Position numbers and translations under genes: made by a program. Below the pieces are notes generated by a model. It was not told where the DNA came from. It searched no databases and saw only the letters and a program-made list of their open reading frames with translations. From Cladocopium goreaui (taxonomy: Eukaryota > Sar > Dinophyceae > Suessiales > Symbiodiniaceae): a DNA stretch of 64,000 bases. Shown in pieces: positions 1 through 59,659 of this stretch. The DNA lies in contig CAMXCT020001502.1 in assembly GCA_947184155.2 (NCBI GenBank), forward strand, positions 401,942 through 465,941. Reading direction: 5' to 3'. Numbering within the stretch: position 1 is the stretch's first letter; each line of letters starts with the position of its first letter.

Positions 1-3000
1 TACACGATGCTTTTGGAAATTGATTTTAGACAAATTTTGTGCCATTGTTTGACGATTTTTTTTTGCGCTCGGGAAGCAAAAACATCGTAAAATAATCTAG
101 AATACAGTGTTTTTGTCCTTTTCGCATATATAAACCACAAAAACACACTGTAAACACCGTTGTTGCTCCGAGGGTTTCAAAAATAAGCGAAAGCACCACC
201 TATTTGACGATTTTTAGGGGTCCACAAAAAGTCGAAAATGAGCTGCGCTGCATTGCAGCAACAACAACAACAAGAAGAAGAAGAAGAACAAGCACATAGA
301 TGAAACAAAACGATGTGTGGTAAGATGGTTACAAACTGCGGTATGAAAAGAACATCACACTGTGCTCTGCACCGCGCGCACGCGCAGAGCACATGAACAA
401 CACCAACGCTCACACTACTATACATAACCATAACTCTTATGGCATCGCCGGTGTGCGAAGCTCTACAATTATAAAGGATAGTATAATCTCCAAACTAATC
501 ATTTCTCAGTCATGAGTCATATCCCCATATTTCTGATTCTTAAAAATGCCAAAAACATCATGAAACCCACAGGAAAAACTAGTGGTTACAGTAACCGTTA
601 CAGGAATCAACCAACAAGGCTTTTTCACGCAGCTGCTCAACTGTTCCGTCCTCCTCCCGGCGCAAGATCGCGGCTGCCTGCAGCAGGGCTGCGTACTTCT
701 CCGTCCTGACATGTCGGCAATGTCAGGGAAGCTTAGCAGCTTGGTATCAGTGACATAGCTCAGGTTGAATTCTTCAAAGCCAAGTAGCGGGGACATTGTT
801 CGTTTGGCCTCAGCTTCGCTGCAGCGAGGTTGACAGAGGATGATCTCAGCTATGTCCACTGTATCCTACTCACTGAATGCCAATAAAAGGAAGCCTTTGC
901 ACTATCTTATCTTCTCACCCAAAGCCTGGACAAGACAACAGCATCAACCAACTGTTGCCAAGGTCGGGACTTGGCTTACAGACATTGCTGGCCGGTCGGC
1001 ATCCTTGGATGGCATGACATGCATGTCATTTCTCCTCAACCTCAAAACTCCCTGGTTTATGAATTTCTTCACCCTTCAGAGGAGCCATAAAATGGGGGCT
1101 CACCACCCCAGATGTATCATCTTGGTTGTACCACTGACCATTCCACAAAATGATGAATCTGCCCATCTGCCAAAACCCCATCCGCCAAAACCCAAAACCT
1201 ATCGCATCCTTTCCGCCCGGATCTGCCAAGGCTCCAAACCGGCAATTCGACCCGCACCCAAGTTGCCAGGGCTTCCTGGCACAGCAGCTGCAGCAAGCTG
1301 CACTACCTGCACTACCCGCAGCTGCAGCCAAGGAGCCGCGCATGGAGCCCAAAACACTGGGCGTTGATTGTAGGCCACATTCAGAAGGAGCGGAAGATAT
1401 TGATGGACTTTGGTGGTTCTCCTGCAGGATATGGAAGTTGATTAAATTAAAGATGATTAAAGTGGCTGAGACTGTGAAGTACAACCTCCATCTGTGTCAC
1501 TTCTGTGTCACTTCAGTCCGAGTTGGCTCCTGCCACGATTGCGTTGTGCTCAAATCTTGGATGAAAAGCACCACCGTCATGCTCACATGCTGGTGTACCT
1601 GAAAGTCTCTTTTGCAAACTCCGCACCATCCGCACCCGCTTGCTGCTTGGTGATGCTCATCCTCTCCAGTCGAGCTCAAATCAGCATGTGTTAGTTATCT
1701 CATTGAGATTCATTGAGTCTAGATATGTCTAGATAAATGATGATGAATAAGTGTGCATGTCACAATGTGATGTAATGAGGCCCCGATAGTAAACCACCCC
1801 CACAATGGTGATGTAAAATGACCCCTTTTTTGTTGCTTTCTCACATGGCTTCTCCGACTTCATGCCATGATCAGCTCATGTTCGCAGCGCCACAGGGCAC
1901 TTTGTCGATCATCCCAGTTAAAAAGGCGAACCTGTCAGCAAGCTCAGTCGATGCTTTTCGTGAAGCTATGCAGGTGGGTTACCATGGGGAGTTCTAACCT
2001 GTCATGGGGGATCCCCAGTGGCTACCATGAGTTAACCTTTTTACCAATCGTCATGTACGGTAATGGTCACCAGGAGGATTTGGGGGGTATCCCCATGACT
2101 CCCTGACACTGACTTTATCCTTCCAAGATACCACTCTGCGGTGTCCTTCTGGCCCTGCATCACGGAATCCCTCAGAGAATTCAGGGCATGGTTGGAATAA
2201 ACATCTGCCAAGGCTTTGTCTGAAAATGGTGTGTACCCCCCAAATGGCCTTTTCACATCTTTTCACTTGGTTTGTGGACCCTATCTCTGTCCGTTACTGA
2301 CCAAGACAGGACCCTTGCCCCCCAAATGTTCATTTTAATTCGGAAAAAGGGTCATCAATCAAGTTTCAGGATCCTTCAAAACTGATGAAACCTGTAGTTT
2401 GTCGATGGAGAGCTAGTGTAGAAGTGGATACAAATTCGGATTTCTGTGAGGTCGGTAGAACCGGTGCATTTCCAACTTATGGCTGCACAGGTTGGCCATC
2501 CAACCAGCAGTTGGACCCTGAGAATACCCCTAGAAATGGGACGCTGCAAATGATCCCCAAATGGTTGGCTGGAATGGTGTATTGGGTGAATCCCACAGTC
2601 TTCCCCAACTCACAAGGTCAACGAAATTGCCAGAAATCTGGTGATCTTTTCAACCAAGATGCTCAGCCCGTTCAAGTGCTTGGATCTCAGAGGTACTCAG
2701 TATTGCTTCATCTGCCAGCCTCCGCATCTTCACGAGATGAAACCCCGAAGTTGCTTTGTGAACCCATTTTAAAAACAGTTGTAAACCCAAACGAACTTAG
2801 CATGGTTCATGGTTGAGTCACCCATCCAAGACTAGCCGAATCATGAATTAGGAGTCTCATTTTCGGGATGGATAATGACGACCATCTCAACACCCAAGAA
2901 TCCAGGCTGAACCCGGGCTGAAAATGCACGAATTTCTCTGAAAACTGTCTTGCAAAAGTTAAGAAATCAAAAAAAGACATCGGTCCTCAAGCTAGGCAAA

Positions 3001-3030
3001 AGTCCATTTGCTGTGGAAACCACTTCGCAC
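1..3030. other. Intergenic or intronic, no confident gene
   Basis: Short open frames occur on both strands but none shows a recognisable domain or a convincing splice-bounded exon. The stretch near 2216-2270 resembles a repeat seen again near 30.7 kb and 37.8 kb (a TTTGTCTGAAAAT motif followed by CCCCCCAAATGGCC). Otherwise I see only ordinary non-coding sequence. Confidence 0.5.
257..290. repeat. (CAA)n(GAA)n compound microsatellite
   Basis: Runs of CAA change directly into runs of GAA/AAG. This is simple-sequence repeat. The minus-strand frame through it reads as poly-Ser/poly-Cys and is not treated as coding. Confidence 0.85.
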
Positions 3031-3231
3031 CTGGACACGAACGTTCAGCAAAGTGACAAGCACTGCCACTTTCAAATGCTGAACTGACAGGAAATAAGCA
3101 GCTGTTCTCGGGCCGTTGAATTCTTTTTGACCATCCTTTCTATCCAGGTCAAATTGAACATCAATACCTACTAGCTGCCTGATGTGGCTAAAGGTGCTAA
3201 CAGGCGCTCTATCTACTGCGATTGAGAGCCC
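3031..3231 (-). CDS. Candidate internal exon, unrecognised
   Basis: On the minus strand an open stretch of about 67 codons has protein-like composition (it contains STFSHIRQLVGIDVQFDLD). Its low-coordinate edge is a plausible donor (CAG|GTGCGAAG) and an AG acceptor lies near 3232. I do not recognise the family. It is on the same strand as the exon candidates at 4.2-4.7 kb and could belong to a downstream gene. It could also be chance: only one frame is open and there is no homology evidence. Confidence 0.3.
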
Positions 3232-3739
3232 TTGCAAGAATGAGCTCTGAAAGGAAGCATCAAGTTACGCTTTCTGGCAAATTCCAGTTTTTGCTTTTGC
3301 CTCTTAGTGCGTCTTTCAGAAGGAATGCAAAAAAGATTGTAAATAAATGAAAATGATAAACCATGCTAAATCCCATGTTCCGCATCATGTCTGTATATCA
3401 CAACCGGCTCACTTTTTTCTTTTAGTTGGATCAGGCCAAAAAAAAATCGATCTGAGACGCAGACTGAAGGTATGGGGATGAGCTGCCTACCAAATATTGC
3501 CTGCCACCAGAGACGCATGAGCAGAGATCAAAATGCTCATTTCCTAGCTGCCTAGTAGAGGATTTCCCCGATGAGACTGTGGGACTGCAACATTAGCGTC
3601 TCAATGTCAGCTCCATGGCTGAAAAATCATGAAAAATCCCGCAGCTATAGTCACTACAGTTTCATGAATTTCGCAGCTATAGTCACTATAAACCTCCATT
3701 TAGTTGGGGGATTCCCAGCCACGGTTGACACCTAAGGAC

Positions 3740-3960
3740 CTAACTGTTTCGAGATGAGAAATCTCCTGCGCCCCACCTGCATCCCTGGATCTTGGCAAAG
3801 CGCAGCTGCGCGTTCACCGAACGGATCAGCTCTGGACGGCCTGCTCCGAGTTTGGGCCGACACCCACGGGACGACACGCCGCGACGGCTGAGACGACTGC
3901 ACCTATGTGGAAGGACATAAAGCCGCGCTCACGGCCGAGCTGTTCTGCGATATGCAACAA
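3740..3960 (-). other. GC-rich island, possible exon
   Basis: This is a local GC-rich island in an AT-richer surround. A minus-strand frame (containing RPELIRSVNAQLRFAKIQG) is open for about 60 codons, and a plus-strand frame is also open. Exons in this window tend to be more GC-rich than the introns, so an exon is likely, but strand and product cannot be settled. Confidence 0.25.
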
Positions 3961-4187
3961 CATCCTGCCAGGTTTGTGCCAATAACTTCGCTCTTTCTAT
4001 AGTTGAAACATGGAAAACAAATGATTTACAGCCCAAGAGGGCTGGTAGGTGCTGAGTAGAATGATTCCAAGTGAAAGTCCCACACAAGTTTTTACCTGCA
4101 CCAATAAATTCAATATCAGCGCGCCTGATTTTGATCTCCGGGGTCGTAACAACGAGATTGTCGCCTCACCAGGTCACCAAGGATGGC

Positions 4188-4691
4188 TTAAAGGATCTTA
4201 AAGGCCCTCGGTGCCAGGGCGCCTCTGAAACCAGCTAGCAGCGAGCCAATCAAATCGATCACCTCTTCATTCAGCTTGCAGTAGCCACTGAAAACCTCAG
4301 GGAAATCTGAAAGTGGCACAAGAAAATCGTATTCTGTTCAATCGACAAAGAGTGTCCAACTAAAGTGAGCTTCTCGACGATGTTCGGCAAGGACGTTCCA
4401 TCAGGTTTGGCAACTTGCAATACGTAGCTTGAGACTGTTGAGAGGCCCCCCCAGTTCTTCGTTGGATTGCAACCCATCTGAAACAAATATCTCCATACTA
4501 GACTAGACCATATATATATATTTCTTTTTCCATACGTAATAGTAAACACATAGCTTCATACCATACCCCACAAACATACTTAGGCCAGGTCAAAGGCCAG
4601 TTCGAAAACAACTTGCCTAGGACACAACTCGAATGCCACCATGTCGCTTCGTCAAAGGCCTCCAGGAAACTGTCCGGGGCATCACCATTTC
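4188..4691 (-). CDS. Three-exon 3' end of an unrecognised gene
   Basis: Three minus-strand exons join in phase. Exon 4617-4691 encodes a piece containing GDAPDSFLEAFDEATWWHSS and ends at a GC donor (CTAG|GCAAGT). Exon 4424-4477 follows a strong acceptor (TTTGTTTCAG) and encodes GLQSNEELGGPLNSLKL before a GT donor. Exon 4188-4306 follows TTTCAG and encodes FPEVFSGYCKLNEEVIDL, then a C-terminal segment ending ...PRAFKIL and a TAA stop. The phases match at both junctions (leftover G + AT, then C + AT). The 5' part should lie above 4691 but I could not trace it; a weak candidate piece (LHLRNIFQFTKAIALDL) is at about 5655-5745. I do not recognise the protein family. The stop could instead be intronic if a GC donor inside the last exon is used. 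Confidence 0.45.
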
Positions 4692-6128
4692 CTCATTCAT
4701 ATGGCCACAAATTATCATCAATTGGAATCAATTGCGGTGTCCCATGGTATCTGCTATTTTTGGACAGGCCCAACTGATGTTGTTATTGTTCTGTTGTTCA
4801 TTTCGAGGACTTCAGCACATCAGAACCTCTACACGCCCTGTTTACAGACCGGGCACTTCGATTGCAGCGACCGCGTAGGCGAGCTGTAAACTCCCGGAGT
4901 TTCAAGATTTGGCTTGCAATGTCGACCTGACATTTGAGATGAGAAATTGAGCTGATAGACTGATAGACCTTCCAAATCACTTGGTCACTTTGGAAACCAA
5001 AGGGGCAGAATGTGGGTAGACTGTGTATCGGGTCCAAATTAGAGAAAGAAAGCCTTTCTCAGGGTAATGCGAGATTCAACCCCATAAACCTACCATTCGT
5101 GGTTAAAAACCATCCATTTATGGCTTACTCGGTGGGGTTATCGGATAACCCGTGTTTCTTGTTACCATATTTTGGGGGGGAACCCAGAAAAGAACCCTCC
5201 TGTAGTGTCCAAGTCTCCATCGAGTTTTCGAGTTGCAAGTGCGACAAGTTCTCCTGAGCGGAGTGGCTGATCATATGGAGGTTTCCTATGGGGCCCGGGC
5301 TAATAGCTGGATGGTTTATTGAAAATGGAAAATCCTAGGAGAATGGATGACTTGAAGGTACCCCCATTTTAGGAAACCTCCATATTGATACTTAGCTTAT
5401 TGATCCTTATTGGATTATATTGATAAATATTGATAATATGTTCTGGATGATATTGATAATATGGTGAAAAAAACTTAGTGCACCACTTACTTTACCACTT
5501 GCTGTACCACTGATAATAATGATCACATGGCAGGAAACACTCACCGCTTACCACTCAGGCTCAGTGTCAGCTGCTGAATATTGTTACTATTTCAGAAGTA
5601 TGATCATTGTCCACCAAATCGTACATAGCAAACCGTTATCGTCAGGGCAATGTCAGTCCTCAAAGTTCTCGAAGCTTGCATCTGTTGACTTTCCTCAGAT
5701 CCAATGCAATTGCCTTCGTGAACTGGAAGATGTTCCGCAAATGCAGCTGGCAATCGCAAAAAAAAACTGACAGTCATAAGAACAATTCTTTTTAGCGGAT
5801 TCTGGCAAGAACCATCTCTAGATTCCGAAGGAGTATGAACCATCACATTGCTCTTCATTGGCAGAAGTGTTACTCCTAAGCGGACCAAGATGACATTTCC
5901 AAGACGGAACCAAGAAAGGACTGGCTGACTGGCCCAGTAAGACTTCCGGATCCCCCATTTCTCCATGGTGCGAAACCAAATGCAGGGATTCTCGGCATCA
6001 GCGCCACTGATTAGCCAACAACTGGCACCACGCCTCGCCAACTTGCGACTTTTTATGGCATGTCTAAGAATCCGGCCATTTGCTGATTGGCGAATGGGGA
6101 ATCCCAGAAAGAATTATGATGATCCCCA
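4692..6128. other. Probable intron/intergenic, no firm gene
   Basis: A long minus-strand frame at 5604-6041 is open but its composition is not convincing. A different frame at about 5655-5745 is more protein-like and follows an AG acceptor, but soon reaches a stop. Short AT-rich palindromic runs occur at 5395-5465. Nothing else is supportable. Confidence 0.3.
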
Positions 6129-6188
6129 ATATATATATATATATACATATACATATACATATATATATATACATATATATATATATTC
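6129..6188. repeat. AT/TATATACA microsatellite
   Basis: Alternating AT with interspersed ACATAT units, about 60 bp. Similar (AT)n tracts occur at 7773-7793, 21500-21545, 25810-25955 and 35410-35475. Confidence 0.85.
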
Positions 6189-6939
6189 TGAGACTTTTAG
6201 TAGGCAGGGAATTGATTGCCTACTACTGCCCTAAAATGTGCAATTTGGGGTGTTTTTAGCATGTTCGTCGGGGGTGCTATTTTCGCAGATTTTGTACAAC
6301 CAGGGGTAGCAGGCAGAAGTGTACCTCAGAAGTGTGGGAAACATATGGTGTCATATTGTGGTTTCTGCTTACTGCACCTCCTTTCCATTGAGGATATAAT
6401 GAGTATATACATAGAGTTACATAGACATGATGCGTACCATATAGCTACCCCCCCAAGATCTACCGTTTTCAGTTTTTTGTTGATGTCAAAGAGGTAGTAT
6501 TTGTTGGGAACCTTTTGCAAAAACAAAGTAGGTACACTATTACTTTCAAAAAAGATGAGCACATACTCAGGTCAGAAAGCACAACAGTTCTTGAAGGAAG
6601 CAATCTGTTTTAAATTGCAGCGTTCCTTTCCATGCTTAAAAAAAGGCAACTTCATTCATAAACTGCAATTTTTCTTCCAGACAAAGTATGGCTTCGTTCA
6701 AGAAACAGTACCCCTACAAAGCACAGAGCATTCCTCTAAACACGCAGTGTTTTTTTTCTGAAGAAGTGCAGTCTTCCTTTCAAACTAATATTAAGCCTTC
6801 CTTCAGTCATACAGTATTTCTTTCAAAACACCAGATTCTAACATTTTGGATATGTCTATGTGTTTGATGCAACAGAGTAAGAATCATATCTTGATCAGAA
6901 ATTTTCAATCTACAATGAATATAGCTTCATTGTAGATTC

Positions 6940-7860
6940 CATATACTTTAATATACCAGTGAATTGACCATAAACATATCTTTAATAAACCTTTAGTAAA
7001 CCTTTGGCATACCTTCAATATCCCCTGTTAAATACAATCTTAAAAAAGCTTTAACATACCATTCCATATACCTGTAGCATTCCATTGGATAACGATGAAG
7101 CTACCTTTAATATACAATTTAATTGGACTTGAAAATACCTTTAGTATACTTTAAATATACCTTCAATGCAAAAAACTTCAAAATATCATTTAATCTACCT
7201 TGGATATACCATTTTATTGGCCATGAAAACATCTTTAATACACCTTTAGGATACCTCTCTACCTCTAGCATACCTTTTATGTTCCATTTAATTTGTCTTT
7301 AATAAACTGTTCATGTATCATCTATACTTAGCTTACCATTCAAGGACCGTTAATATTTCATGTGATGTACCATTAATTAATACTATTAAAAAAAAAAACG
7401 TTTACTACACCTTTAGTATACCTTGAAGGTATATACCTTTCATATACCATTTCATTGACCTTGAAAATACCACCATGTCTCTAAAATACCTTTTACTTAC
7501 CATTTAGTTTGCCTTTAATAAACCTTAAATATACAATCATTAGTTTACCATGTTAGAATCATTAATATTCCATTTGATATACCATTACTATATTATTTAA
7601 TATGGTTTTAGCATACCGCTATATATACCATGAATCTACCTCTAATATACAAATTGTGTGACTTTGAAAATACCTTTAATATACCTTGAGTATACCATCT
7701 AATCCACCTCTAATATACCATTTAATATACCTGTAGTTTACCTGTAATATTCCAGTCTGGCCATGAATCTATAATATATATATATATATATATCTAGTAT
7801 ATCTCTAAAATACCTTGTGTTTTCATTAAAAATGTCGCTTACTACACCTTTAATATTCCA
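6940..7860. repeat. Degenerate AT-rich tandem repeat
   Basis: About 900 bp built from diverged copies of short motifs such as ATACCTTTAATATACC, ACCATTTAAT and GACCTTGAAAATACC. Spacing is irregular, so this looks like an old, decayed minisatellite. It adjoins the left edge of the retroelement at 7915. No ORF of interest lies within it. Confidence 0.7.
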
Positions 7861-7914
7861 AGTGCATGCAGTATCTGAGAGCATAGCGCTATGTTGGCCC
7901 GCTAGCATAGAGGG

Positions 7915-7960
7915 CCAGGTACTTAGAGCAATTTTGTCACCAAAAGCGTTTGCAAACGTT
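7915..7960 (+). repeat. Left arm of 46-bp outer inverted repeat
   Basis: This 46-bp sequence starts CCAGGTACTTAGAGC and ends GCGTTTGCAAACGTT. It is the reverse complement of 13741-13786 with a single mismatch. It directly abuts the left 496-bp direct repeat. It may be the terminal inverted repeat of a DNA transposon that hosts the retroelement, or part of the retroelement's own terminal structure. I see no clear target duplication outside it. Confidence 0.8.
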
Positions 7961-8455
7961 GATAAAAGGAAAATCGAAAGCCTCTTCAACGAAAAGGACC
8001 CGCTTGCCACACAACATGTGTGCTATAGCCCACCATGAGCTTGCGAAAAAAGCAAGGGATTTCGTCAAGACTATCACTGGCACGCTCTTAAAAATGGAAA
8101 AATACTCATCAGGTATCAGCTCTTAACGCAACCAGATCAAATCTTGGGCTGATACTATCCCTGCAGATGTCAAACGCGCAGCTAAAAACCTTTTAGCTAC
8201 ACACAGAAAAATGGACATTTTTTTGCCAATACTGGCATCGCGGCCAAAAAACCCCAGCCAATTCAAGAAGCGACCAGCAGAACATATTGATTCAAAGAAA
8301 CCCTATCAAAACACATGGGCCAAAATTCAGCCAAACATAACCAAAAATTTCATCAAACACTTCCCTGCTGCCGAGCCCCTGAGTAGCGGACCTGGCAGAA
8401 GACGACGTGCAAAAAACTTGTCAAAGTGGTATTACGTGGCTTAGGGGGTGGAGAC
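7960..8455 (-). repeat. Downstream 496-bp direct terminal repeat (pLTR)
   Basis: This is a direct repeat of 13086-13581 with only a few substitutions and compensating 1-base indels; both copies are 496 bp. It starts TGATAAAAGGAAAATCG and ends GGGGGTGGAGAC on the plus strand. The ORF2 stop lies 53 bp inside the element from its edge. It contains the hammerhead-like fold at 8055-8162 and a plus-strand open frame of 77 codons (8211-8444). Confidence 0.9.
8055..8162 (-). ncRNA. Hammerhead-ribozyme-like fold, downstream copy
   Basis: Read on the minus strand, the order is: stem III 5' strand AGGGAU, an AUA cleavage triplet (NUH type), stem I GUAUCAGC, a 27-nt loop, stem I return GCUGAUAC (8 perfect pairs), immediately CUGAUGA (8106-8112), a 42-nt insert, GAAA (8060-8063), then UCCCU closing stem III (six pairs counting A15.1-U16.1). 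All conserved core blocks are in the correct order and register. Stem II is the weak point: only G-C and U-A pair next to the core, with a possible UUAAGA/UCUUGA helix inside the insert. The same strand encodes the RT. Self-cleavage is predicted, not shown. Confidence 0.55.
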
Positions 8456-8507
8456 CCTCAAAAAGCCGTCCCTGTGTGAAACCGTGCTTTTGCTTCGCAG
8501 AAACAAA

Positions 8508-11495
8508 TCAAGGTTGAATCATCACCAGGGAGTTTTCAAAGCGACCAACAACACATTCCACATCAGAAAAAAGAGTGGGGGTGGGCAGCAACTCACCCTT
8601 CGGCACCCAGGACAACGCCCAAACCTTGGAATGTTGTCTGACGAAATGCCAAGGGAAATTAGCACGATAAACAAGTGCCACAAAAACCTCCCATAGCGCT
8701 TCGCGCAGTGCAGCACGCGAGGTGGAGAAATACCAGGACCTACACAACAAACCCCTTACAGCTGTTTTAAACTGCTGTGGGGGTGCCCATGACTGCCATG
8801 GTTTGAGAGGAAAGTTGTCAGTTTCCCCATAGCAGTGGGCAGCCCAGGGATCCGACGTACAGGGCCGCAAAGAGATATATGCACCATCCCAAGCAACCTG
8901 CAAACCTGTAAAAACATTGTCATCCGCTTTATCCAAGGACATCGTGCCAACAACAAATCGCTGGCGCCACTGTACCCATGCCCAGGATCGGACAACATCA
9001 GGCGTAAGTGCCGAGCATGAACGCCATGCAAAAAACATGCGAAGATCATCACGGTACGAAACATCTAGCACCAAAACGTTAGACTGTAAAAGGTGCAGCA
9101 GCTTACACTTACTGGCTGGTATTGGCACGCTTTCAGCGACCGCAGCCACACCACAGTGGAATTCACGGTGCCATTTCCATAGCCTCAGCAGCGCAGAACT
9201 CAAGGCATCTCCTTGAGGGGCACCATGCTGTTCACGACCTAACCACGAACCTATGGCAACGTGATTAGTGGTTGCAAAAGCCAACAAAATCTTACGAATT
9301 GATGCGAAATCTATACAGGTCCAACCAGGGTCATCACATCGACCAAGGATACCACGACAGCCTAAACGCTTGTGGGGGACACTAACACAAGAAAGACCCA
9401 GCCCTTTCCAGTAAGCAGCCAGACCATCCCACATGTCGGCAAAACGCTCACAAGGAAGATGCCGGAAACAATCCTTCATATCAGCGGCAGCTGTACAACC
9501 AACATCAAACTGATAATCCTGAACATGGAGATTAAAATCACCGACCAAAGACACCACTTCACCCATGGAGAGGTAGTCACTCCATAAATGCCGTGGGAAA
9601 CTATCCAAAAGAATGTCTAGACCCCGTGAAACAAGCGAATGCAAGCCACAACACGGGGTGTAGTGCTTGTTGACCATAAGTCGCCACTTCAACCCTGGAC
9701 ATTTCCATTTTGGCAAAAAAGAAACTGTGGCAATGCACCACTGCCTTTTAGAAACGACAGTGTGCAAACCGGGAATCAAATGTGAAGGAAGGTCTGACAT
9801 GTTAGCCATGCCACTCAGCACATCCCGCTGACGACCAATATCCGAGACCGACCAAGCAAAATTCGCATCAGGTTTTTGATGATGCAAGAAATCCAATAAC
9901 TGACAAGCATGCTCAAAAACCAACTTGGGACAAAAAACTCCCAATGAAGAGGGGTTGTGGTCAAACACAGAGACGAAAACACCCTGCGCTTGGAGCCACT
10001 CCCTTGCTTCACCAACGTGAGACCAAGTTATTGGGACTCGACTGTCTTGGACAGGCAAGGACCACAAGGAGGAACAGCAGCGCTGCACTGCTTCCACTGC
10101 ACAGGAGTCCGAAATCGGAATACGGCATCGATTACGAAGCCTCCGAAAAGACGTCCGAACTGCAGAAACCACATCCTCAAAACGAGGCGGGAGGCCGATG
10201 CTTGCTGGCCACCCAGCGAGATGCTGTAACTGTTCAGGCCAAGGCACCATACCCTGGGGGGCGGCGATGTGCTCACAGCCGTCAAAAGTAACGACAGGCC
10301 AGCCAGGATTTTGCAAGCGCACAGCCTCACAGATACACTGTGGGGAAACACCCTCTTCGAGAGCTTGGCGCAAAACTGACGTGCTTGTCAAACAATCTGC
10401 CAAAGTAGGGGGAGCAGTCCACGAAACAAAGCACTTTGCATGCCTTGCTATGGGAACCCAGTGCCCCTTCCGTCTCCATGCGGAAAGTAATTCACGAATT
10501 TCACCGCGCAAAATGCGCAGTGCCGATGTGGAGCCCATCCAGGGGACAGACACCGCAACAGATGACACAAAAGGGCAAAGGTCTCTCCGTTTCTTGGAGA
10601 TGATACCTAAAAGATGAAGGCCCCGCTTTCGCCGCCAACCTGTTTCAAATTGGTCAACTCGGCGAGCCACATAAGCCCAGGCACCGGGACTCAAATTCCA
10701 TGCCGCGAGAGCGGCAGCGTTTGACTTTTCAAAACGCCGCCCAGCCAGCGCGGCAGCAATTTTTTGAAGACCATCACGCCACTCTTTCCGAATAAGACCC
10801 ACAGAAGAGGATAAAGACATTTCCCCTGCAGCAGGTTGAGAAGGGCGGAGCCTACACAAAGAGCGAAAAGAATCAAAGATACGAAGACCCTGCACTTGCC
10901 GCTGCTTTGTTTTTGGAAGCAAACTATACACCGTCGGCGGATTCAAAGTGCCCAGACTATGGCAAAGGGCGGTTTCAGCCAAAAGCCGCTCGCCAGTATC
11001 CACGGGAGCGAGATGCACCGGCAACATCATCAAAAAACTCAGGGCGGCAAGCAACTGTGTCCCTTGACAGCAGTTGTGCCGAACAACCTGGTAAAACGGT
11101 TGCTGGGTCGCACCATCTTGAGCAATGAGGCGAAGGAGGTGTTCCACCATACGCCGCCGAAAGCTCGTTGTTTCACCAATGTAAAACAAGGGCCCAAAAC
11201 GAGAACATCTTAAAGGATAAGGAAAAATAATATAAAGGCATGGTGACTGATGGAGAAGTTGCCATCCATGGGCCCACGGGTCAGAGCCAATGAGCTTCAA
11301 TAAACGCACATTTCTCCTTGAAGGCAAAACCTGTAACAACATCAGCCAAAGACTCCCTGCCAGGCTAATCAGCAGAAATTGGTCCTCCCAAGAACGGCGT
11401 GAGACTAAAAACAAACGAAAACGCAACAACAAAACAACATCAAGGGCAGCTTTCAGGGCAGCACTCAGGTCAGGATCAGCAGAAAATAGCTCAAC
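8508..11495 (-). CDS. ORF2: GIY-YIG endonuclease plus reverse transcriptase
   Basis: The frame is open for about 995 codons after the TGA that ends ORF1; the first ATG is at 11342, upstream of the nuclease. Counting residues from position 11432, residues 66-98 carry the GIY-YIG core (LYIIF, then FYIGETTSFRRRMVEHL), with Glu153 and the LN pair at 163-164 in the place expected for the catalytic Glu and terminal Asn. Reverse-transcriptase motifs follow at 580-855: WRLMVNK (motif 2 region), motif A ADMKDCFRHLP (Asp651), motif B GAPQGDALSS (738-746), motif C YRDD (793-796), and SLDKADDNVFTGLQVAW (motif D/E-like). The catalytic Asp triad is intact. The roughly 400-residue linker is unrecognised. 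Such proteins nick target DNA and prime cDNA synthesis there. The intact frame suggests recent activity. Confidence 0.85.
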   Translation of the reverse strand, partial: VELFSADPDLSAALKAALDVVLLLRFRLFLVSRRSWEDQFLLISLAGSLWLMLLQVLPSRRNVRLLKLIGSDPWAHGWQLLHQSPCLYIIFPYPLRCSRFGPLFYIGETTSFRRRMVEHLLRLIAQDGATQQPFYQVVRHNCCQGTQLLAALSFLMMLPVHLAPVDTGERLLAETALCHSLGTLNPPTVYSLLPKTKQRQVQGLRIFDSFRSLCRLRPSQPAAGEMSLSSSVGLIRKEWRDGLQKIAAALAGRRFEKSNAAALAAWNLSPGAWAYVARRVDQFETGWRRKRGLHLLGIISKKRRDLCPFVSSVAVSVPWMGSTSALRILRGEIRELLSAWRRKGHWVPIARHAKCFVSWTAPPTLADCLTSTSVLRQALEEGVSPQCICEAVRLQNPGWPVVTFDGCEHIAAPQGMVPWPEQLQHLAGWPASIGLPPRFEDVVSAVRTSFRRLRNRCRIPISDSCAVEAVQRCCSSLWSLPVQDSRVPITWSHVGEAREWLQAQGVFVSVFDHNPSSLGVFCPKLVFEHACQLLDFLHHQKPDANFAWSVSDIGRQRDVLSGMANMSDLPSHLIPGLHTVVSKRQWCIATVSFLPKWKCPGLKWRLMVNKHYTPCCGLHSLVSRGLDILLDSFPRHLWSDYLSMGEVVSLVGDFNLHVQDYQFDVGCTAAADMKDCFRHLPCERFADMWDGLAAYWKGLGLSCVSVPHKRLGCRGILGRCDDPGWTCIDFASIRKILLAFATTNHVAIGSWLGREQHGAPQGDALSSALLRLWKWHREFHCGVAAVAESVPIPASKCKLLHLLQSNVLVLDVSYRDDLRMFFAWRSCSALTPDVVRSWAWVQWRQRFVVGTMSLDKADDNVFTGLQVAWDGAYISLRPCTSDPWAAHCYGETDNFPLKPWQSWAPPQQFKTAVRGLLCRSWYFSTSRAALREALWEVFVALVYRANFPWHFVRQHSKVWALSWVPKGELLPTPTLFSDVECVVGRFENSLVMIQP

Positions 11496-12602
11496 TCAGG
11501 AAGGCCTTCGCACAATGTCAAGGGCGCGAAGCCGAGCCAGAAGGATCGGAACTTTCTCGTCAGGGCTGACATTCAAAGCATCCAAGAGCTTGTTGAGGCA
11601 TGTGTTCTCTTTTGTTTTTGCGCCGAGCTTCGGCATGATTCGCTCCAGCTTTCGCAAATAAATGCGGAAGACTGTCTGGTATAGATCACTCATGGCTTCC
11701 AAGGGCGACAGGGCCAACAAGGCCTTGGCGGCCGGGGTCTTACGCCCAGCAATGCGGTGCGCCTTGGTATCCAACTCAAAATTGGCCATAGTGAGGCTGG
11801 CAGTGTCTGTGTCGACCCGCCGTTTCACCCAGTCATGGAAATCTGGGGAGGTAGTATCCTGCTTTTTCTGAGCGGGTGAGTCCACAGCCATGGCCCTCAA
11901 TGCATCCAGGGAACCTCGGGGAGGCGAAGCAGCACCTGGAGCAGCCTCAAAGGGCAGATCTGGGGTTGCCCACTCAATATCACGAGCGTTGGGTGATGAA
12001 CGTGGTTTTTCAGGGCATGCATCCAAATATTTGAGAATGCTCTTCCATTTGACTGGATCCGTGGTATTCAACGGGATCCTATGGAAGACATCCCAGAAAT
12101 GCCGCTCAGTCAATCGGCTCATAGGTACAATCTTCATGCCATCCTCGGCATAAAAAGGGGCTGCCTGGGGTGTCGCGAGAGCTTGGATTCTCTCTCGACG
12201 AAGATTGTTGATTTTTCGACACATCTCCATGCGAGACTCTTTGTCAGAGATGGACTTAACGTCCGTGATGATGCCATCAGGAGCATCAAAGGCTACGCTT
12301 CGAAGAGATGCCGGCAAATCATTGAAAACCTTCTTGAACTCAGCAGGGGGAAGCCGAGAAAGCAAGGAAGCCACCTCATCATGCGATCCTCTGGGTGACC
12401 GCGACCGCTCATGTGAACGGTGCGTAACTGGCATTCCATGGCTAGGTGCCCAAACCCCAGGAGGGACCATCATGTGCTGAGGAAGAAAGTACCCACCACT
12501 CATCTGATTCATCTGCTGCAAAGGAAAACCGGGATGCGCAGCCTGATGAAATTCAGCACGTGGAGGCGGTGGAGGAGGCGCAGTGCCATGACCACAATGC
12601 AT
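11496..12602 (-). CDS. ORF1: Pro-rich/SR-containing gag-like protein
   Basis: It starts at ATG 12602 (the frame is open up to 12746) and ends at TGA 11498-11496, about 368 residues. The N-terminal part is low-complexity: a run of seven prolines and a Gln/Met/Pro-rich stretch. A short Ser-Arg patch (SHERSRSPRG) follows, then a globular-looking basic region with predicted helices (LLSRLPPAEFKKVFNDLP, RHFWDVFHRIPLNTTDPVKW). The C-terminal half is Lys/Arg/Leu-rich and probably helical. No zinc knuckle is visible. I know no named family. Its position ahead of the RT in the same frame suggests a nucleic-acid-binding structural protein or the N-terminal part of a fused polyprotein. The frame continues without interruption into ORF2 past the TGA. 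Confidence 0.7.
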   Translation of the reverse strand: MHCGHGTAPPPPPPRAEFHQAAHPGFPLQQMNQMSGGYFLPQHMMVPPGVWAPSHGMPVTHRSHERSRSPRGSHDEVASLLSRLPPAEFKKVFNDLPASLRSVAFDAPDGIITDVKSISDKESRMEMCRKINNLRRERIQALATPQAAPFYAEDGMKIVPMSRLTERHFWDVFHRIPLNTTDPVKWKSILKYLDACPEKPRSSPNARDIEWATPDLPFEAAPGAASPPRGSLDALRAMAVDSPAQKKQDTTSPDFHDWVKRRVDTDTASLTMANFELDTKAHRIAGRKTPAAKALLALSPLEAMSDLYQTVFRIYLRKLERIMPKLGAKTKENTCLNKLLDALNVSPDEKVPILLARLRALDIVRRPS

Positions 12603-13085
12603 AGCTTTAAAAATGCCGCCGCAAAAATCAGGAAAAAAACCAAGGCGAAATCTTGCAGAAGGAAGATTGCAACTGATCACATGTCGGGGTGACAACCTTT
12701 GCTGAAGCACAGCATTACAGTTCACAACTCTTGCTAGAATTACCAAGGCTCATTCAGAGAAGAAGCTCGAAACTTTTTCTGGGATAGCGCGCTTAAACAT
12801 GCCAGCCACACCTGCAAAGAAGGATCCAATGGTGAAGACCATCAACGTAAACTAGATAACTAAGAAAAAAAATACCTTTGTGAATAAAGTACGTACTGCG
12901 AACAAGGCAATCATGCCAATATCACGTGTCTATTTTTCCAGATCAATCATCGACCTGAGAACAAATTTGAGACTGAAAAACGCTAGTACTGCCAAGCCAT
13001 TGGCAAGAGAAATGCCTACACCAGGACCATTCCTGGGGTCCCAAGGGTCACAATACCACAAATTTGGGCACAGGCGCAAAAAATA
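12603..13085 (-). promoter_or_regulatory. Element 5' leader between upstream repeat and ORF1
   Basis: About 480 bp between the upstream direct repeat and the ORF1 ATG. The ORF1 frame remains open to 12746 without an ATG. No TATA box or tRNA-complementary primer site is recognisable. It presumably contains the 5' untranslated region. Confidence 0.4.
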
Positions 13086-13581
13086 TGATAAAAGGAAAAT
13101 CGAAAGCCTCTTCAACGAAAAGGACCCGCTTGCCACACAACATGTGTGCTATAGCCCACCATGAGCTTGCGAAAAAAGCAAGGGATTTCGTCAAGACTAT
13201 CACTGGCACGCTCTTAAAAATGGAAAAATACTCATCAGGTATCAGCTCTTAACGCAACCAGATCAAATCTTGGGCTGATACTATCCCTGCAGATGTCAAA
13301 CGCGCAGCTAAAAACCTTTTAGCTACACACAGAAAAATGGACATTTTTATGCCAATACTGGCATCGCGGCCAAAAACCTCCAGCCAATTCAAGAAGCGAC
13401 CAGCAGAACATATTGATTCAAAGAAACCCTATCAAAAACACATGGGCCAAAATTCAGCCAAACATAACCAAAAATTCATCAAACACTTCCCTGCTGCCGA
13501 GCCCCTGAGTAGCGGACCTGGCAGAAGACGACGTGCAAAAAACTTGTCAAAGTGGTATTACATGGCTTAGGGGGTGGAGAC
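13086..13581 (-). repeat. Upstream 496-bp direct terminal repeat (pLTR)
   Basis: Second copy of the 7960-8455 repeat in the same orientation and 5126 bp away. Differences are a few point changes, mainly in A or T runs. In the element's own orientation this is the 5' copy and would contain the promoter. The hammerhead-like core at 13181-13288 is identical to the other copy. Confidence 0.9.
13181..13288 (-). ncRNA. Hammerhead-ribozyme-like fold, upstream copy
   Basis: Same sequence and folding as the 8055-8162 copy: AUA site, 8-bp stem I, CUGAUGA (13232-13238), GAAA and stem III. Two identical ribozyme-like motifs in direct repeats would allow excision of a unit-length RNA from a read-through transcript. 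Confidence 0.55.
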
Positions 13582-13710
13582 TGGCTCAGGATTCAAGATT
13601 CAAGGTCCAAAAAAAACTTCTTGAATCCTGGGGCTAGGATCAGGAGAGTTTCTGGATTCAAGAAGTGTTTTTTGAATCTTGAATCTTGAACCTTGAATCC
13701 TGAGCCAGTC
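13579..13710. repeat. Foldback hairpin beside the retroelement
   Basis: Arms of about 50 nt (13579-13630 and about 13655-13710) are near-perfect reverse complements, starting GACTGGCTCAGGATTCAAG and ending CTTGAATCCTGAGCCAGTC. It starts exactly at the outer edge of the upstream direct repeat. It could be a MITE inserted at the boundary or a structural part of the element. Confidence 0.8.
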
Positions 13711-13740
13711 TAAGTACTTGGGCCCCTGGACTCGTTTGCA

Positions 13741-13786
13741 AACGTTTGCAAACGCTTCTGGTGACAAAATTGCTCTAAGTACCTGG
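13741..13786 (-). repeat. Right arm of 46-bp outer inverted repeat
   Basis: Reverse complement of 7915-7960 with one mismatch. It includes the small palindrome CGTTTGCAAACG. It is separated from the upstream direct repeat by the hairpin and about 30 bp. Together with the left arm it brackets a 5.87-kb unit. Confidence 0.8.
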
Positions 13787-26308: not shown

Positions 26309-29300
26309 TCAGCAACAGAATTTGGCTCGTTTTGAAGACCAGCTTACCTGCCAGTGCTCATAGTCGGTGACGCAATCATACTTGATCGGGCCGTGGTGGT
26401 GGCTGTGGTGGGACTTATGGGTGGCCCAAACATGATGACCAAGCCGGGACCAGTCACTGGACCAGTGGTGCCCGAAGTGCACCTGATGCTGACTCCAGCC
26501 CTTGGGGCATCCAAGTTTGTACTTCCCACAGCAGAAGCTCTGTTTGTCTTGGGACCATCCCTTTTGCCAATTGTCATATCCCGCAGTGCAATCGTAATCA
26601 TCACTGCTGGAGATATGAAGCTCCTCCAAGTGTTCATAGTGGTCACCGTCGCGTTCGCAACCCATCCCGAATTGGTCACAACAGTAGACCATCTTTGTGC
26701 TGGACCAACCTTCCTTCCAGTTGTCATAGCCGGCGAAGCAGTCAAATTGGTGTTTTGCTCCGCATCCAGCTCGACGATGCTGACAGCACCACATAATCTG
26801 GGATTCCTGAGATGTTTCTCGCTCCATAAAAACGGCAAAACGTTTGTCATTGACTGTGCATCCTGCTCTTCTTGCTCTGGCCACTTTCTAGGGCTAGCCA
26901 GGCTAACCAGGTCAGAACAGACTCCAACGGATGTTGCGTTGAGGCTGTGACCTAGACATACATAAATCATACATTCAGATTGAATCATTAAGAACACCGA
27001 AGAAGGCAAGGTTAGAGGAAATGGTCCGCCGGAAGAAACTTCCTAAAGTCATGATCTCATTCCTCCACCTAGGTATATCATGCTGGGGGAAAGCATCCTC
27101 TTGGTAGAGTACCGAAAAAGGGCTGAGATTATCTCCTTGAAAAGGACCCTTTGCATCCCTTTGCGGCATTTTGAATTCAATTTGTGTCTGGTGATCCTTC
27201 ACGAGGTGCTTCAACAGCGATTGCAGCTGCGTTTCTGACCAAGTATGCAGCTGGTCAGTGTGGCTGCAGTCGTAGGCGTCGTTGGCAGCACAGCCACGGC
27301 CGTAGGCGCTACAACACCAGTCCCTCAGGCCCCAGGCAGGTCTATAATCTTAAGCCATCCATGTAGGATGGTATGGGTCATTTCACCCTGGTTGCTAGCG
27401 AACATCTCAGCAAATGAAGAGAAGAAAAGAAGATCGACTATCTTGGGATGGTAATTTAGCAATTTTGGGGTATTCTTCTTGACCCCCACCATGAGGCAGG
27501 GCTGCGCCCACATTTCTGTCAGGGTGCTTTTTGGCTGATGTCCAAAGAACTTTCCAGTGATTGTAGCCTGCCTTGCAATCAAAGCTTGCTGACCTGAGAA
27601 CATAAAGCGATGGCAGGTGACGAACAAGGAACGTCGCAAAGTAACTGCTGCCATGCTTCACTCATAGTGCAAATTCTGCTGATGGACCGTCAAGCTCAAA
27701 CTGGTTTTGGATGGGAGTGCAAGCCGCAAACTGTAGACATCTGAATACCCCCTCATACTGGGACCAATGTGCATCGCACGTACTGAAAGCAGTAAGTCAA
27801 CTGGGCAAGACTTTAAGAAAGCCTGCCAAGAGCTCAAGAATCCGGTGAATGGGAATGCCATGGAATGCCTATCTCACAAACATTGGGTCTGAACGGTTGC
27901 AAGTCCCGCAGTGCATTCCGAACGACCCGCAGAACTCTTTCTCTTCAGGAGACCTTGGAGCTCTGCAGAGCTCTGCAGCTGCGCAGCTTGAGGCCCGGAA
28001 GCTGGTCCGATTCTGAGAGCACGGCTGGGCCTTTTCACAGTCATAGTGCTTCTCACAGCCCTTCCCTGCTTTTGCGCAGCACCTGAGGATGCAAAGATAG
28101 TAAGAACCATGTCAACCATGCACCAAAGAACACACAGAATACTTTTTTGTGTCAACGCAGTGGAAGCGTTCGCCCGCACATGTTGCCACACATTGCCACA
28201 CAACCCTTAGCCCAGCAAGCCCTGTGGTTTCTCCGCATCTAGGGCTCAATTGAAGGATTTCCGATGTCCGGCTGGATTTGGCAGCTTCGCTACTTAGAAT
28301 CAGATAGAACAAAGCTTCTGATCTCATAGACTGGTTGACAAGTGCCAGCCAATCATTGCCCAGTTGCCAGTCTTTCTTCTGAGATGACCATCCCCTGTAT
28401 GCGAAGTCAGCTTTGGAGATAACATCTCTTTTCCGTCTCGAGATCTCTATGAGATGACACTTTTTGGAAAAAATCTGAAACACACAAGAGTAGACTTAGG
28501 TTTTCAGAATTTATGAGACCTCTGAGATCCTTTTTTAATCACTTCTACGATACGAGTTTCGTGATTTGCCCACGTGCCTTTGCCAGTTGGAGTAGCCGTC
28601 CGCGCAGTCATATTTGGCCATGATGTGTCCCGAGCTGCAGCCCACTTGCTCATTGTGGCAACACCAGGCCTTCCACTGCGACACCGTGGGTGAATCATGG
28701 TGAATCTGTGATGTCGGGGGCATCGCTTCCTTTGCGTTGTGGAAATATGATTTCGTACCACGAAAAAGACTCGATGTCCGCATTTTGGACCGTGGACCGC
28801 ACCTTTTGCAAATCAGGCCATGCAGCAATTGCATGGGCTGAAGTGACCTCAACCAGGACAAAAAATGGTGGCGCAGGAACCCAAGTACTGTCAGTACTGT
28901 ACTCGATTGGTGAAATGCATATCACCAACTGCCTTACAGTCATACAGCTTCTTCCGCTCCTGCGCAGACGAAATCAGCTATGATGTAAGGACTCTAAAAT
29001 CGAACAAACGCGCGCAGTCCTCACCGCAGCCTGTGAAGAAATGATCGCAGCACCATTGCTTTTTGCCTGGAAGGGCAGAAAGGAAACTGGCTGAAAGGCT
29101 CATATTTATTTCGAGGAAGCTGAAAGGGAAATATAGGGGTCCAATGATGCTTGTCATAGACAAAAACATGGTGCAAAAACACGCACCACATCCAAAGCTA
29201 AAGACTTCACTTATCACGGTAACCACCCAACAAAAGCATATCTAATCCTGCTCTGGACCTGGTTCACCCATTGCCCAACTTCTGAGAAAGACTTTCCAGT

Positions 29301-46459: not shown

Positions 46460-49392
46460 CTATGTCTGACTCCGTGTAGTGTATTCAAGGTGGTGTTGCT
46501 TGTCTGCTCGGAGAGTGTCATTCCAGCTGTTCCCAATCGCAAAGGAGACAGGGTTCGCCCTTTCTGTCCTTGCGGCCAGAAGTCGCAACTCATTGCATTT
46601 AGTCTGAAAAGCAACAAAGTCGTTATCTGGTGCTCTCTTACGTAGTTTCCTATCCGGGAAGGCCCGCTCTCTCACGTGCTGCCTCAGGATCGTTTTTGGT
46701 AAGTAGTGGGCTGGTCGCTGGAACAGCACCCTGCCTGCTAACTTTCCGCGGTTAACTTCCCAGTGCGTGAACATATGGCGGTGTTGTACTTGCTGCCTGA
46801 GTTGTGCAGCATACTGGTGGAAACTTTTGGGCGTGTGCCACAACCTCAGGAGGCTGTAGTTAGACGGCCACTCAAGTGGACACAGAGTGGCTGTCTGCTT
46901 CCACATTGCAGGAGTAAGTCCTTTGGTGGATGGTACAATTACCTCCAGGTTGACTCTCGTGGGTCCAGTGGGTTGCAGGCCCCTCATAATGTAGGGTTCT
47001 ACTAAACCCATAGTGTACCCTCGTATGAGTTCCGAAAAGCAATCGGCTGCTTGTAATTCCTCGTCCAAAGCCAGACTCAATCCAGGAGCGTTTTTGTCAG
47101 TGAACTTAACCGCCTGCAGTACTTGGTCAAAAGCCTCGCTCTGCAGCCCCTCAAACACTCGCTGGGGACAAGAGAAGGAAACCTCTTGCGGGGCTTGGAT
47201 GGGACCTCCTTCTTCCCCTAGAAAACACGGCGCAATCTTGCTGGCCCAGCTAGCCGGAAACTACGCCAGTAAGGCCGAGATCCCACTGACCAGGTCGACC
47301 CCGGTGTGACGCCGAGAATGGGGCTGGTTTGTGACGACAACTTTCACAGGGCCACTGGGGGCACGTTTTCGGTTTACTTCTGCACTCTCTTTGGCTGCCC
47401 CAATTAGCTCAGAGAGGATTGGACGAAACCAAAACGTGGCGTACAACAGGCATTCCGTCTCTGGGGTAGCCAGAGACTCAGCTCGTCGAGTGAGCGAGCA
47501 TATGTACTGCGAAAGTGTTTCAGCCAGCCGGAGTGTGAAACTTCGGGCGGCATGTGCAAATACCCTCAACAGTATCGATCGCATCCCTCAGCCACAGTTC
47601 TGACGCAATTGACATGAAAAGGCGGGCAAACTTTTCTTGTATGGACGTCAGGGAGATAGTAAGCTTGGCCTGCAGCCACAGGTGTGGAAGAGCGCCTAGG
47701 TTGTCGGGCTGGAAGAAGACGTTGGCGTGAGGCTGTGAACTGTTCATCATGGTGGCCAGCTTGTCAGCTGCACCTTTGATTTCCATTTCCGTAGGGTCAT
47801 CAAGGGCAGGTGGGATTGGCGGGCGCCATGGTTCCTTAGGAGGTATATCCGCTTCATCGGCTTCCTCCTCTATATCAGATTCACCATCAGTGGTGGCTCG
47901 CTCTTCCTCTGACGAGGGATCATCCACTGTCTCGCCAGCCCCTTCAGGGCCTACTAGAGGGCTCTCTCTCATATGCACTTGCAGTGTAGGAGCCTGCAGT
48001 AGCAGTGGTTGCAGTCGGTGAGCATCAAAAATAGTGGATACCTGGTATGAGTAATATCCGCCGGTCTTTGGTGGCTTGATGAAAGTACATCTTGCTTCCT
48101 CTGAGCCTGTGGACAAGAACCGGGGGGCCATTGTGGGAAGCACACAGCCACAGTGGAGAGCGATATCCATCGCCGGCATAGCCATACAGGTATTCCCTAT
48201 CAATAGAACCTACTCGCCGTGAGGCGATGGTCACGACTGTGGGAGGCTAATGCTGCAGTGACTTCCTGCGTAAGCCGCAGCTTTGACTTCTGTGCAATTA
48301 CCAGCCGATATCTTCTCGGGGATCGCACTCCATTCAAGGTCACCACCATAGCAATGGCAAGGGGCGGTTTGTCTTGTGAGTTGAAGGGTGGATTAAGTCT
48401 CCACTCTAAGACCGCTTCTGCATCCGATGGTACGCGCTTTGGTTCATGAAACTGGACAAGCCTATCTTTGAGAGTATAGTACCCATAGTGATTTAGACCG
48501 CAAGCGTCTGAGCCATCCCGATCAGCCCAGCCATATCAATGGGGGAGACGATGTACGTATGTTTAATGGCTCTGGTGAGCGCGACAGTGGCTCGCCCAAA
48601 ACAGTCTTCCTTGGCCCCCGCTGAGGAATCCACACCCTGTCTGAACAACGACTGCTATTCGCGCGGTAGCCCCTGCTGCAGACGAGGTGGTGGCTATTCT
48701 AAGTCATCCAAACCAAGCTGCCTGAAAACCATGCTGCAGGAGTTGGGTGTGCACCGCCGTGCGATTACACATTACCAGGAGCTGCGCTGTCGCTCCTTGA
48801 TTGAGGTCCCGATAGCACTTTTGGAGGTAGTTGAGAAACACTACGATGTCCTCAATGGCAGCCATGAGATCTCTGGGGTCTCTAGGTACTTCCCATAGCA
48901 CCGTGCGGAAACCTCCGTGCTCGGCAGTGTGATCATGAGGGACAAAATGGCCTATTTGGATGGGATCCTGATCATGTAGCACCAGTTCCGGGTACCGAAC
49001 TGCGACGATGGCTTTATACGTCAACAGGGACACTCTGGAGCTGTTGGGCAGTATGATGCCCCATCTATGTGGGCCATCCAAACCGGCTGCTTCCACCGTA
49101 GTTGTACACTCAGGGATGCCAAATTCTGGCGCAGTAGCAATAAGCAGGACAGCTAATATTGCAGAAATCAGGCAACTATTAACATTCAGGTGGCTGAGTG
49201 TTTCCTGACTGAAAAGGCGCGCCAGTGAGGTTGGCAGGTTGTTGCGGTAGTCCAAACTCCTGTATGTGGTGCTTGGCCAAGGCTGAGCAGCCAAGCCACC
49301 TCAGGGTCATTATCCTGGCTCGCATCTGGCCAGAGAAGGGCAATTAGCTTGGTGAGCCGGGCAGAGGGCAGATAATCACCAGTGCGATTCTG
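46460..49392 (-). pseudogene. Frameshifted SF1 (Upf1/NAM7-like) helicase-family copy
   Basis: Intronless minus-strand coding homology passes through at least six frames. From 5' to 3': YRNNLPTSLARLF and LLVMCNRTAVHTQLL (49290-48704), motif V/VI-like GRATVALTRAIKHTYIV with IDMAGLIGMAQTL (about 48588-48508), HYGYYTLKDRLVQFHEP (48510-48210), IDREYLYGYAGDGYRSPLWL (48210-48025), then 48060-47520, 47584-47261 and 47260-46460. The VALTRA..IV segment matches SF1 helicase motif VI (AAA_12-type C-terminal lobe). The remainder is a C-terminal extension shared with 62249-64000. The Walker A/N-terminal half is absent because the LTR element begins at 49393. The shifts mark it as decayed. Confidence 0.7.
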
Positions 49393-57609: not shown

Positions 57610-57611
57610 TG

Positions 57612-59035: not shown

Positions 59036-59659
59036 GCCATACCTGGACCAGGACAACCTTGCACACCTTGACTCACACTACCTGAATCCATTCCTACTTA
59101 CGCGCAGCAAGCAGGCAGCTCCGCTACCATGCGGAAGACGACAGCCTTCGAAACCCACTTGGGTCAGCGTCCAGGACGTCGTCCTTAACTCACTAAGACC
59201 GTCCACGCAACCAAGTCAACCACTCCCAGAGCTCAGCCACTTTTACCAAACACACAAGCAACAAGGTGTCTTGCTCATGTCGTTATGGTTCTTGTTGGTG
59301 TGTCACGCCTTGACACAAAATGACGCGGAGTCGCCATCTTTCTGCTAACTTTCACAAAAGCGATCAAAAACACATGTCCTCACAAAAAGTCTTTACATCA
59401 AGACATGGTTTGTTTGTTTAAATAAGTTTGAGTGTTTGAAAACTGTTGAAACATTTCAAGCACCAAAACATGATTCATGATGTCTCCCTCAGATCTGTTA
59501 GCAACTCCAATTCTGAATTCCTTTCAGAATGTTGCTCTCGCTATCATCATTGAGAGACAAAACAAACTGCACTTCTCCGTTCAATGTCAATCTCCAATAA
59601 AACGTGCAAAACATAAAACGTGCAAATACGATGTCAACCATCATGGTTGAGCTCATCAT
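59036..59659. other. Spacer between LTR element and right helicase copy
   Basis: No ORF is accepted. A second initiator-tRNA-like primer site (minus strand TGGTAGCGGAGC at about 59128-59139) suggests that 59140-59660 may be the LTR of another, interrupted element. This is weakly supported. Confidence 0.35.

Follow-up and report, generated by a model that had tools for sequence, protein, structure and literature searches.

A probable Penelope-like retroelement with an N-terminal GIY-YIG endonuclease, recently active in the dinoflagellate Cladocopium goreaui

In Naiad and Chlamys, two groups of Penelope-like elements (PLEs) described by Craig et al. in 2021, an N-terminal GIY-YIG endonuclease (EN) is reportedly followed by a CxC domain and a C-terminal reverse transcriptase (RT), and an insertion in the fingers domain (IFD) is said to separate RT motifs A and B in such N-terminal EN+ PLEs. 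The Chlamys EN is reported to be devoid of the CCHH motif found in other PLEs and of any conserved cysteine. To our knowledge, N-terminal EN+ PLEs lack canonical hammerhead ribozymes. Here, we report the analysis of 64,000 nucleotides (nt) of the Cladocopium goreaui genome (contig CAMXCT020001502.1), hereafter the window, to which all positions refer unless stated otherwise, and of a retroelement inserted in it on the minus strand, from 13581 (5') to 7960 (3'). With a probability of about 0.78, this element is a recently active, autonomous PLE with an N-terminal endonuclease that represents a dinoflagellate lineage; most probably, it is a divergent N-terminal EN+ PLE.

The window element shares with Naiad and Chlamys the N-terminal GIY-YIG domain, a CxC region between EN and RT, and pseudo-long terminal repeats (pLTRs) formed by partial tandems; its EN resembles that of Chlamys in having no conserved cysteine, and the hosts of both groups are likewise protists or algae. 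The window element differs from them in residing in an alveolate, in carrying a separate open reading frame (ORF), ORF1, before a conserved TGA, and in containing a pseudoknotted hammerhead of type III order, and its RT profile is very divergent from the PLEs compared. With a YRDD family that has a C-terminal EN, presumably the 'Hydra' clade, it shares the YRDD form of motif C, a degenerate GIY-YIG domain and a CxC motif before the EN, whereas the position of the EN differs and no significant match between the RT profiles was obtained. Canonical Penelope and Poseidon elements are similar in the GIY-YIG family, a telomerase-like RT as modeled, and partial tandems with pLTRs; they are also similar in the 5' microhomology without target site duplication (TSD) of one described copy and in a hammerhead located at the pLTR (PMC3846280, PMC11167929). 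They differ in the reversed order of domains, the single ORF and the minimal type I hammerhead; their optional 30-40-bp tail was not seen in the window family.

A 2025 report places Chlamys in the brown alga Ectocarpus and states that no earlier report of PLEs existed for TSAR, a supergroup to which dinoflagellates also belong (PMC12477816). In the literature searched by title and start of abstract, where subscription journals are mostly uncovered, no Penelope-like or hammerhead-carrying element of dinoflagellates is described. A preliminary description of the window had proposed a PLE-like dinoflagellate element in which hammerhead-like motifs and an ORF1 accompany pLTRs and an N-terminal GIY-YIG domain, and this proposal is borne out by covariation and structure prediction as well as by relatives and other copies.

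ORF2 (8508-11495, minus strand) is open for 995 codons (11495-8511) plus a stop, directly after a TGA at 11498-11496; the 974-amino acid (aa) ORF listed originally starts at 11432 and provides the residue numbers used here. There are 14 related proteins, among them P0005 from C. goreaui (99% identity over 46% of the query) and P0010 from Polarella glacialis (39% over 99%). Conservation was counted across 12 aligned sequences, the window and 11 relatives; the alignment of relatives A3 excludes P0005, P0010 and P0014, and A5 excludes P0005 and P0014. The comparison sets were 20 canonical Penelope/Poseidon PLEs (A2; from 120 among 5643 matches) and 16 proteins of the YRDD family with C-terminal EN (A4; from 120 among 3381 matches). 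Rows with less than 60% coverage were dropped from the domain profiles, leaving 12, 19 and 15, and 11, 19 and 15, of 12, 20 and 16.

The GIY-YIG domain (residues ~64-166; 10935-11243) matches Pfam PF01541 below the cut-off, and its profile matches PLE endonucleases with E=1.6e-8 (hhalign). The catalytic residues are kept in all 11 of the 12 aligned sequences that reach the domain; across the 12, the EN region has one conserved histidine, H98, and no invariant or nearly invariant cysteine. The connector region (10248-10580) contains C366 and C368 (codons 10337-10329), invariant in 12/12 sequences. Its profile weakly matches the connector of the C-terminal EN YRDD family (E=0.004, probability 8%), and against canonical PLEs no profile match was obtained (E=0.24). 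What had been taken for a long linker of about 400 residues is indeed present between the GIY-YIG domain and the first RT motif, but it is not loose: the stretch is conserved, and structure prediction indicates a fold for residues 205-500 (predicted local distance difference test, pLDDT, 86.5).

The RT with its thumb (8511-9980) completes the order of N-terminal GIY-YIG, CxC region and C-terminal RT within one ORF. Asp651 of motif A (9482-9480) and Asp795 and Asp796 of the motif C YRDD (9056-9045) are invariant in 12/12 sequences, so that the GIY-YIG core and RT motifs previously noticed in one frame are conserved across the alignment. From Asp651 to Gly737 of motif B there are 86 residues, compared with 59 in A2 (D393-G452) and about 62 in A4 (D276-G338, register uncertain). 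In Foldseek and VIA-align comparisons of the AlphaFold2 model of ORF2, telomerases rank first, above R2 and LINE-1, and the RT as modeled is telomerase-like. Profile hidden Markov model (HMM) comparison, a kind of check envisaged in the preliminary description, connects the EN to PLEs; for the RT, the match to PLE RTs is colinear but not significant (E 0.19-0.33, global 0.77), a point against the PLE affiliation.

In the 1.166-Gb host genome assembly, we found 11 copies, the window and loci L009-L018, at 10 sites, given that L017 and L018 lie at one site; their units are 99.3-99.9% identical. ORF1-TGA-ORF2 is open in 8/11 copies, ORF2 being frameshifted in L015 and partly missing in L017 and L018. 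Every copy consists of one full unit with a constant start, directly after the 3' end of a 5'-truncated upstream unit, the cut points of which (element positions, BLAST) are 4642, 4775, 5192 (two, same site), 5273, 5301 (two), 5305, 5316, 5323 and, in the window, 5332. The placement of a full unit behind a truncated one accounts for the direct repeats of ~496 bp recognized at the outset, the upstream pLTR (13581-13086), a 3' remnant of the truncated unit, and the downstream pLTR (8455-7960), which are 98.8% identical over 497 alignment columns. The start of the upstream repeat differs among copies, and in some the repeat extends into ORF2. The element terminates in ...TTTTATCA, and its 3' end is CTTTTATCA in 10/11 copies and CTTTTATC in L015. 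A 30-40-bp tail, which is optional on some PLE copies (PMC3846280, PMC11167929), was not seen in the 11 copies. The pLTR search of the host genome yielded 28 matches, comprising 22 at at least 98%, which amounts to precisely two per locus over the 11 loci, a single relative at 78%, and five short matches. To judge from the sequences, this combination of full and truncated units corresponds to the partial tandems with pLTRs that characterize PLEs; all 11 copies contain both the direct repeats and the GIY-YIG domain, as the preliminary description would require.

Two direct repeats around ORF1 and ORF2 in a Gag-stop-Pol-like layout could also denote an LTR retrotransposon with true LTRs of ~496 bp and a GIY-YIG domain in place of integrase. 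We consider this highly improbable, given that the left edge of the upstream repeat varies over 10 sites (element positions 4642 to 5332) and may reach ORF2, that most copies have no clear TSD, and that the predicted RT fold is telomerase-like. Moreover, the two pLTRs of the window differ at 6 columns and resemble those of different copies. LTR synthesis accounts for this less well than template jumping or a mixed tandem source, although a collapsed assembly could mimic the pattern. Two observations favor true LTRs and weigh against the PLE interpretation: repeats within one copy differ at 2.5 columns on average, compared with 4.2-5.1 for repeats of different copies, and a 6-bp direct repeat lies near the two junctions of L010.

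The boundaries given here replace those of the preliminary description, which extended the element from 7915 to 13786 and regarded 46-bp terminal inverted repeats (TIRs) as its ends. Both flanks belong to a foldback repeat in which the element inserted, with 46-bp inverted ends and a AAGATTCAAG hairpin: its left part, one TIR plus the hairpin, lies at 13582-13786, and its right TIR at 7915-7959. The inverted repeats and hairpin are assigned to target DNA because they are absent beside 10/10 other element copies, the left part has 158 reported matches in the host genome, and uninterrupted copies of the foldback repeat, which represent empty sites, exist at L047 and L048. The similarity of these two loci to the window continues past the TIR at either end, so that the target repeat may exceed the TIR-to-TIR length. 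Compared with them, the window lacks ~7 bp from a repetitive part of the target and has no TSD; GTCTC at its 5' junction is common to target and element. No clear TSD was found among the 10 other copies. Similar 5' junction microhomology without TSD is documented for a rotifer Penelope copy (PMC3846280).

A fixed 3' end, a variable 5' end, microhomology and a small target deletion resemble target-primed reverse transcription (TPRT) and, together with the non-significant RT match to PLEs, would suit a LINE-like (non-LTR) element that acquired GIY-YIG independently and whose repeats are tandem insertions. To this option we give little credence: telomerases rank above R2 and LINE-1 in the fold comparison, the EN matches PLE ENs, all 11 copies are partial tandems, and 0/28 pLTR matches mark a copy of the window family truncated within the full unit.

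ORF1 (11496-12602 including the stop; 368 aa, MHCGHG...RRPS) is intact in 11/11 copies and lies, as originally noted, on the same strand and in the same frame as ORF2. Its best start is the AUG at 12602, identical in all 11 copies, from which the coding sequence runs to 11499 and the TGA (11498-11496). No confident match was found in Pfam or PDB. Compared with a 72% lineage, the nonsynonymous rate (Ka) is 0.26-0.27 and the synonymous rate (Ks) is 2.6 or saturated, by which ORF1 is evidently under purifying selection. The position of the TGA is constant in 11/11 copies, in L019-L021 (~72% lineages) and in L022-L023 (~39% lineages), with the frame continuing after it; the first in-frame AUG in the window is codon 52 past the TGA. 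Over the first 60 codons past the stop, comparison with L019 gives Ks 1.37 and Ka 0.19. A stop conserved to ~39% protein identity and followed by codons under purifying selection is a candidate for readthrough, which suggests that ORF2 may be translated in this way.

Two results weigh against readthrough: L020 is frameshifted within these 60 codons (Ka 0.59), and no stimulatory RNA structure was found at the TGA. The latter, along with the gene models P0005 and P0010, which fuse ORF1 and ORF2 and omit the stop region, would also agree with a PLE-like element in which the TGA is bypassed by splicing, re-initiation or non-AUG initiation. This is a possibility to be taken seriously, if short of an expectation: removal of the stop by splicing would not explain the constraint, detected against L019, on the codons between the TGA and the first in-frame AUG, and there is no in-frame AUG close to the stop.

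Both pLTRs contain a putative ribozyme, at 13181-13288 (predicted cleavage 13282/13281) and 8055-8162 (predicted cleavage 8156/8155), with the predicted sites 5126 nt apart. Each block consists, in order, of GGGAU, A (predicted cleavage), an 8-bp hairpin stem, CUGAUGA, 42 nt (GU...AC), GAAA and AUCCC, which provides an open stem III of 6 bp, a closed stem I of 8 bp, a stem II of 2 bp, and AUA or GUC as the cleavage-site NUH. In a Watson-Crick loop-loop pseudoknot, CAAGA of the stem I loop is paired with the UCUUG that immediately precedes AC-GAAA. All 22 window-family pLTRs contain the block, as do L019, L020, L028 and L029. Both sides of stem III co-vary, GGGAU/AUCCC being replaced by GGGGU/ACCCC in L019, L020 and L028 and by AGGGU/ACCCU in L029; a U-A pair of stem I becomes C-G in L019-L021 and L028, and the pseudoknot becomes CAAAG/CUUUG in L029.

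Covariation was assessed in the alignment A6, which includes 5 of the 22 window-family blocks, one of the two from L019, and L020, L021, L027, L028 and L029, the L021 row ending before the 3' strand of stem III, mismatched in that lineage. Over 10 distinct rows, 99.0% of 204 cells are paired, with double changes in 6/21 pairs (15 cells); 0/500 shuffles scored as high on these measures, and slid controls, which are biased toward structure as it was drawn from the same sequences, gave 35-40%. A strict descriptor matched twice in the window, in the two pLTRs, both times with the pseudoknot, and in 100 random windows once without and never with the pseudoknot; a looser hammerhead descriptor matched twice in 60 random windows. 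As far as sequence comparison can tell, with core, NUH and three helices in place, the block is a hammerhead of type III order with an open stem III. Thus, the hammerhead-like motifs reported earlier are present in both repeats; their type III order, like the conserved TGA, had gone unnoticed.

With its 6-bp open stem III, 8-bp stem I and pseudoknot, the block is not of the minimal type I attributed to PLE hammerheads, in which helix III or loop contacts are missing (PMC7761336). The same source and PMC6155905 assign type III hammerheads mostly to plants and viroids, and pseudoknotted type III variants to RNAs resembling that of hepatitis delta virus (HDV). Plant LTR retrozymes are similar in type III order and one hammerhead per terminal repeat, and HDV-like circular RNAs in the conserved pseudoknot (PMC6155905, PMC7761336). 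Retrozymes, however, are small and non-autonomous and HDV-like circular RNAs are not retroelements, whereas the window element is autonomous and its stem II has 2 bp.

Several observations tell against a functional hammerhead. The Rfam search finds none; the minimum free energy (MFE) folds differ from a hammerhead and are only slightly stabler than shuffles; the 2-bp stem II is broken in 2/10 distinct rows; the pLTRs of L022 and L023 have no exact hammerhead core; the block is lost from the upstream pLTR of L020, stem III is broken in L021, and the core is changed in L027. Also, both blocks are intact in all 11 integrated copies, from which it follows that the integrated templates were uncut at the hammerhead. 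These features of uncut copies, stem II, MFE fold and ~39% lineages would fit a conserved cis-element that is hammerhead-like but non-cleaving and serves another purpose, such as RT binding or initiation. We find this unlikely in view of the complete CUGAUGA/GAAA core with NUH, the covarying stems I and III and pseudoknot, and the scarcity of descriptor matches in random windows. For an anole PLE, hammerhead mutants are likewise reported to leave insertion in vitro unaffected (PMC11167929).

Among the diverged lineages, L029 (7465-8603), a third lineage, carries the hammerhead block plus the first 140 ORF1 residues (46% identical), with no further match in the 400 bp left of the examined stretch. 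L022 (element 2051-8303) lies between apparent direct repeats of ~75 bp with 96% identity, which may constitute a long TSD and have no counterpart in the window family. L030 (5794-8783) is a diverged copy with 299-bp terminal direct repeats and a shortened interior, and L031 (294-4789, reverse strand) a diverged copy with 241-bp terminal direct repeats.

Elsewhere in the window, two copies of a 1.4-kb repeat (49391-50784 and 57610-59036) are 95% identical and contain internal 200-bp tandem units. The regions 46460-48203 and 62249-63781 encode related proteins and look like two diverged copies of another repeated element; the AT skew is strong at 44-46 kb and at 60-62 kb, and the proteins have no Pfam match at E 0.01. 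An open frame at 26309-26884 contains repeated Cys-rich units (YDNWxxGWSxxKxxxCC), without a Pfam match at E 0.01.

We propose that the insertion template would be an RNA that covers more than a single unit, or a pair of RNAs connected through template jumping, bound by the ORF1 product and the ORF1-ORF2 readthrough protein. The GIY-YIG domain would nick the target, reverse transcription would begin at the fixed 3' end, copy one full unit and continue into a second, and the other end would be closed by microhomology repair. The hammerhead would probably cut part of the tandem transcripts, perhaps to make mRNA. Under multi-unit insertion, by end-to-end template jumping or from a terminally redundant RNA, ribozyme cutting and reverse transcription would compete for the tandem transcript. 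Tentatively, then, the element may represent a dinoflagellate PLE branch that combines ORF1-TGA-ORF2 expression by programmed readthrough, a type III hammerhead with 2-bp stem II and pseudoknot in the pLTRs of the window family and nearer lineages, and multi-unit insertion.

If this is true, it would connect telomerase-like retroelements with the viroid and retrozyme ribozymes of type III. The finding would extend PLEs to alveolates, within TSAR, for which PMC12477816 gives its own brown-algal PLEs as the first report, and would place a hammerhead of type III order inside a PLE-like element, where PMC7761336 describes minimal type I. A PLE-like element with an N-terminal endonuclease is now available in near-identical and apparently intact copies, and, with integrated copies that run uncut through both sites, these would offer a natural test of the role of the hammerhead in such elements. 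The conserved TGA would make Gag-Pol-like readthrough directly testable in a telomerase-related retroelement.

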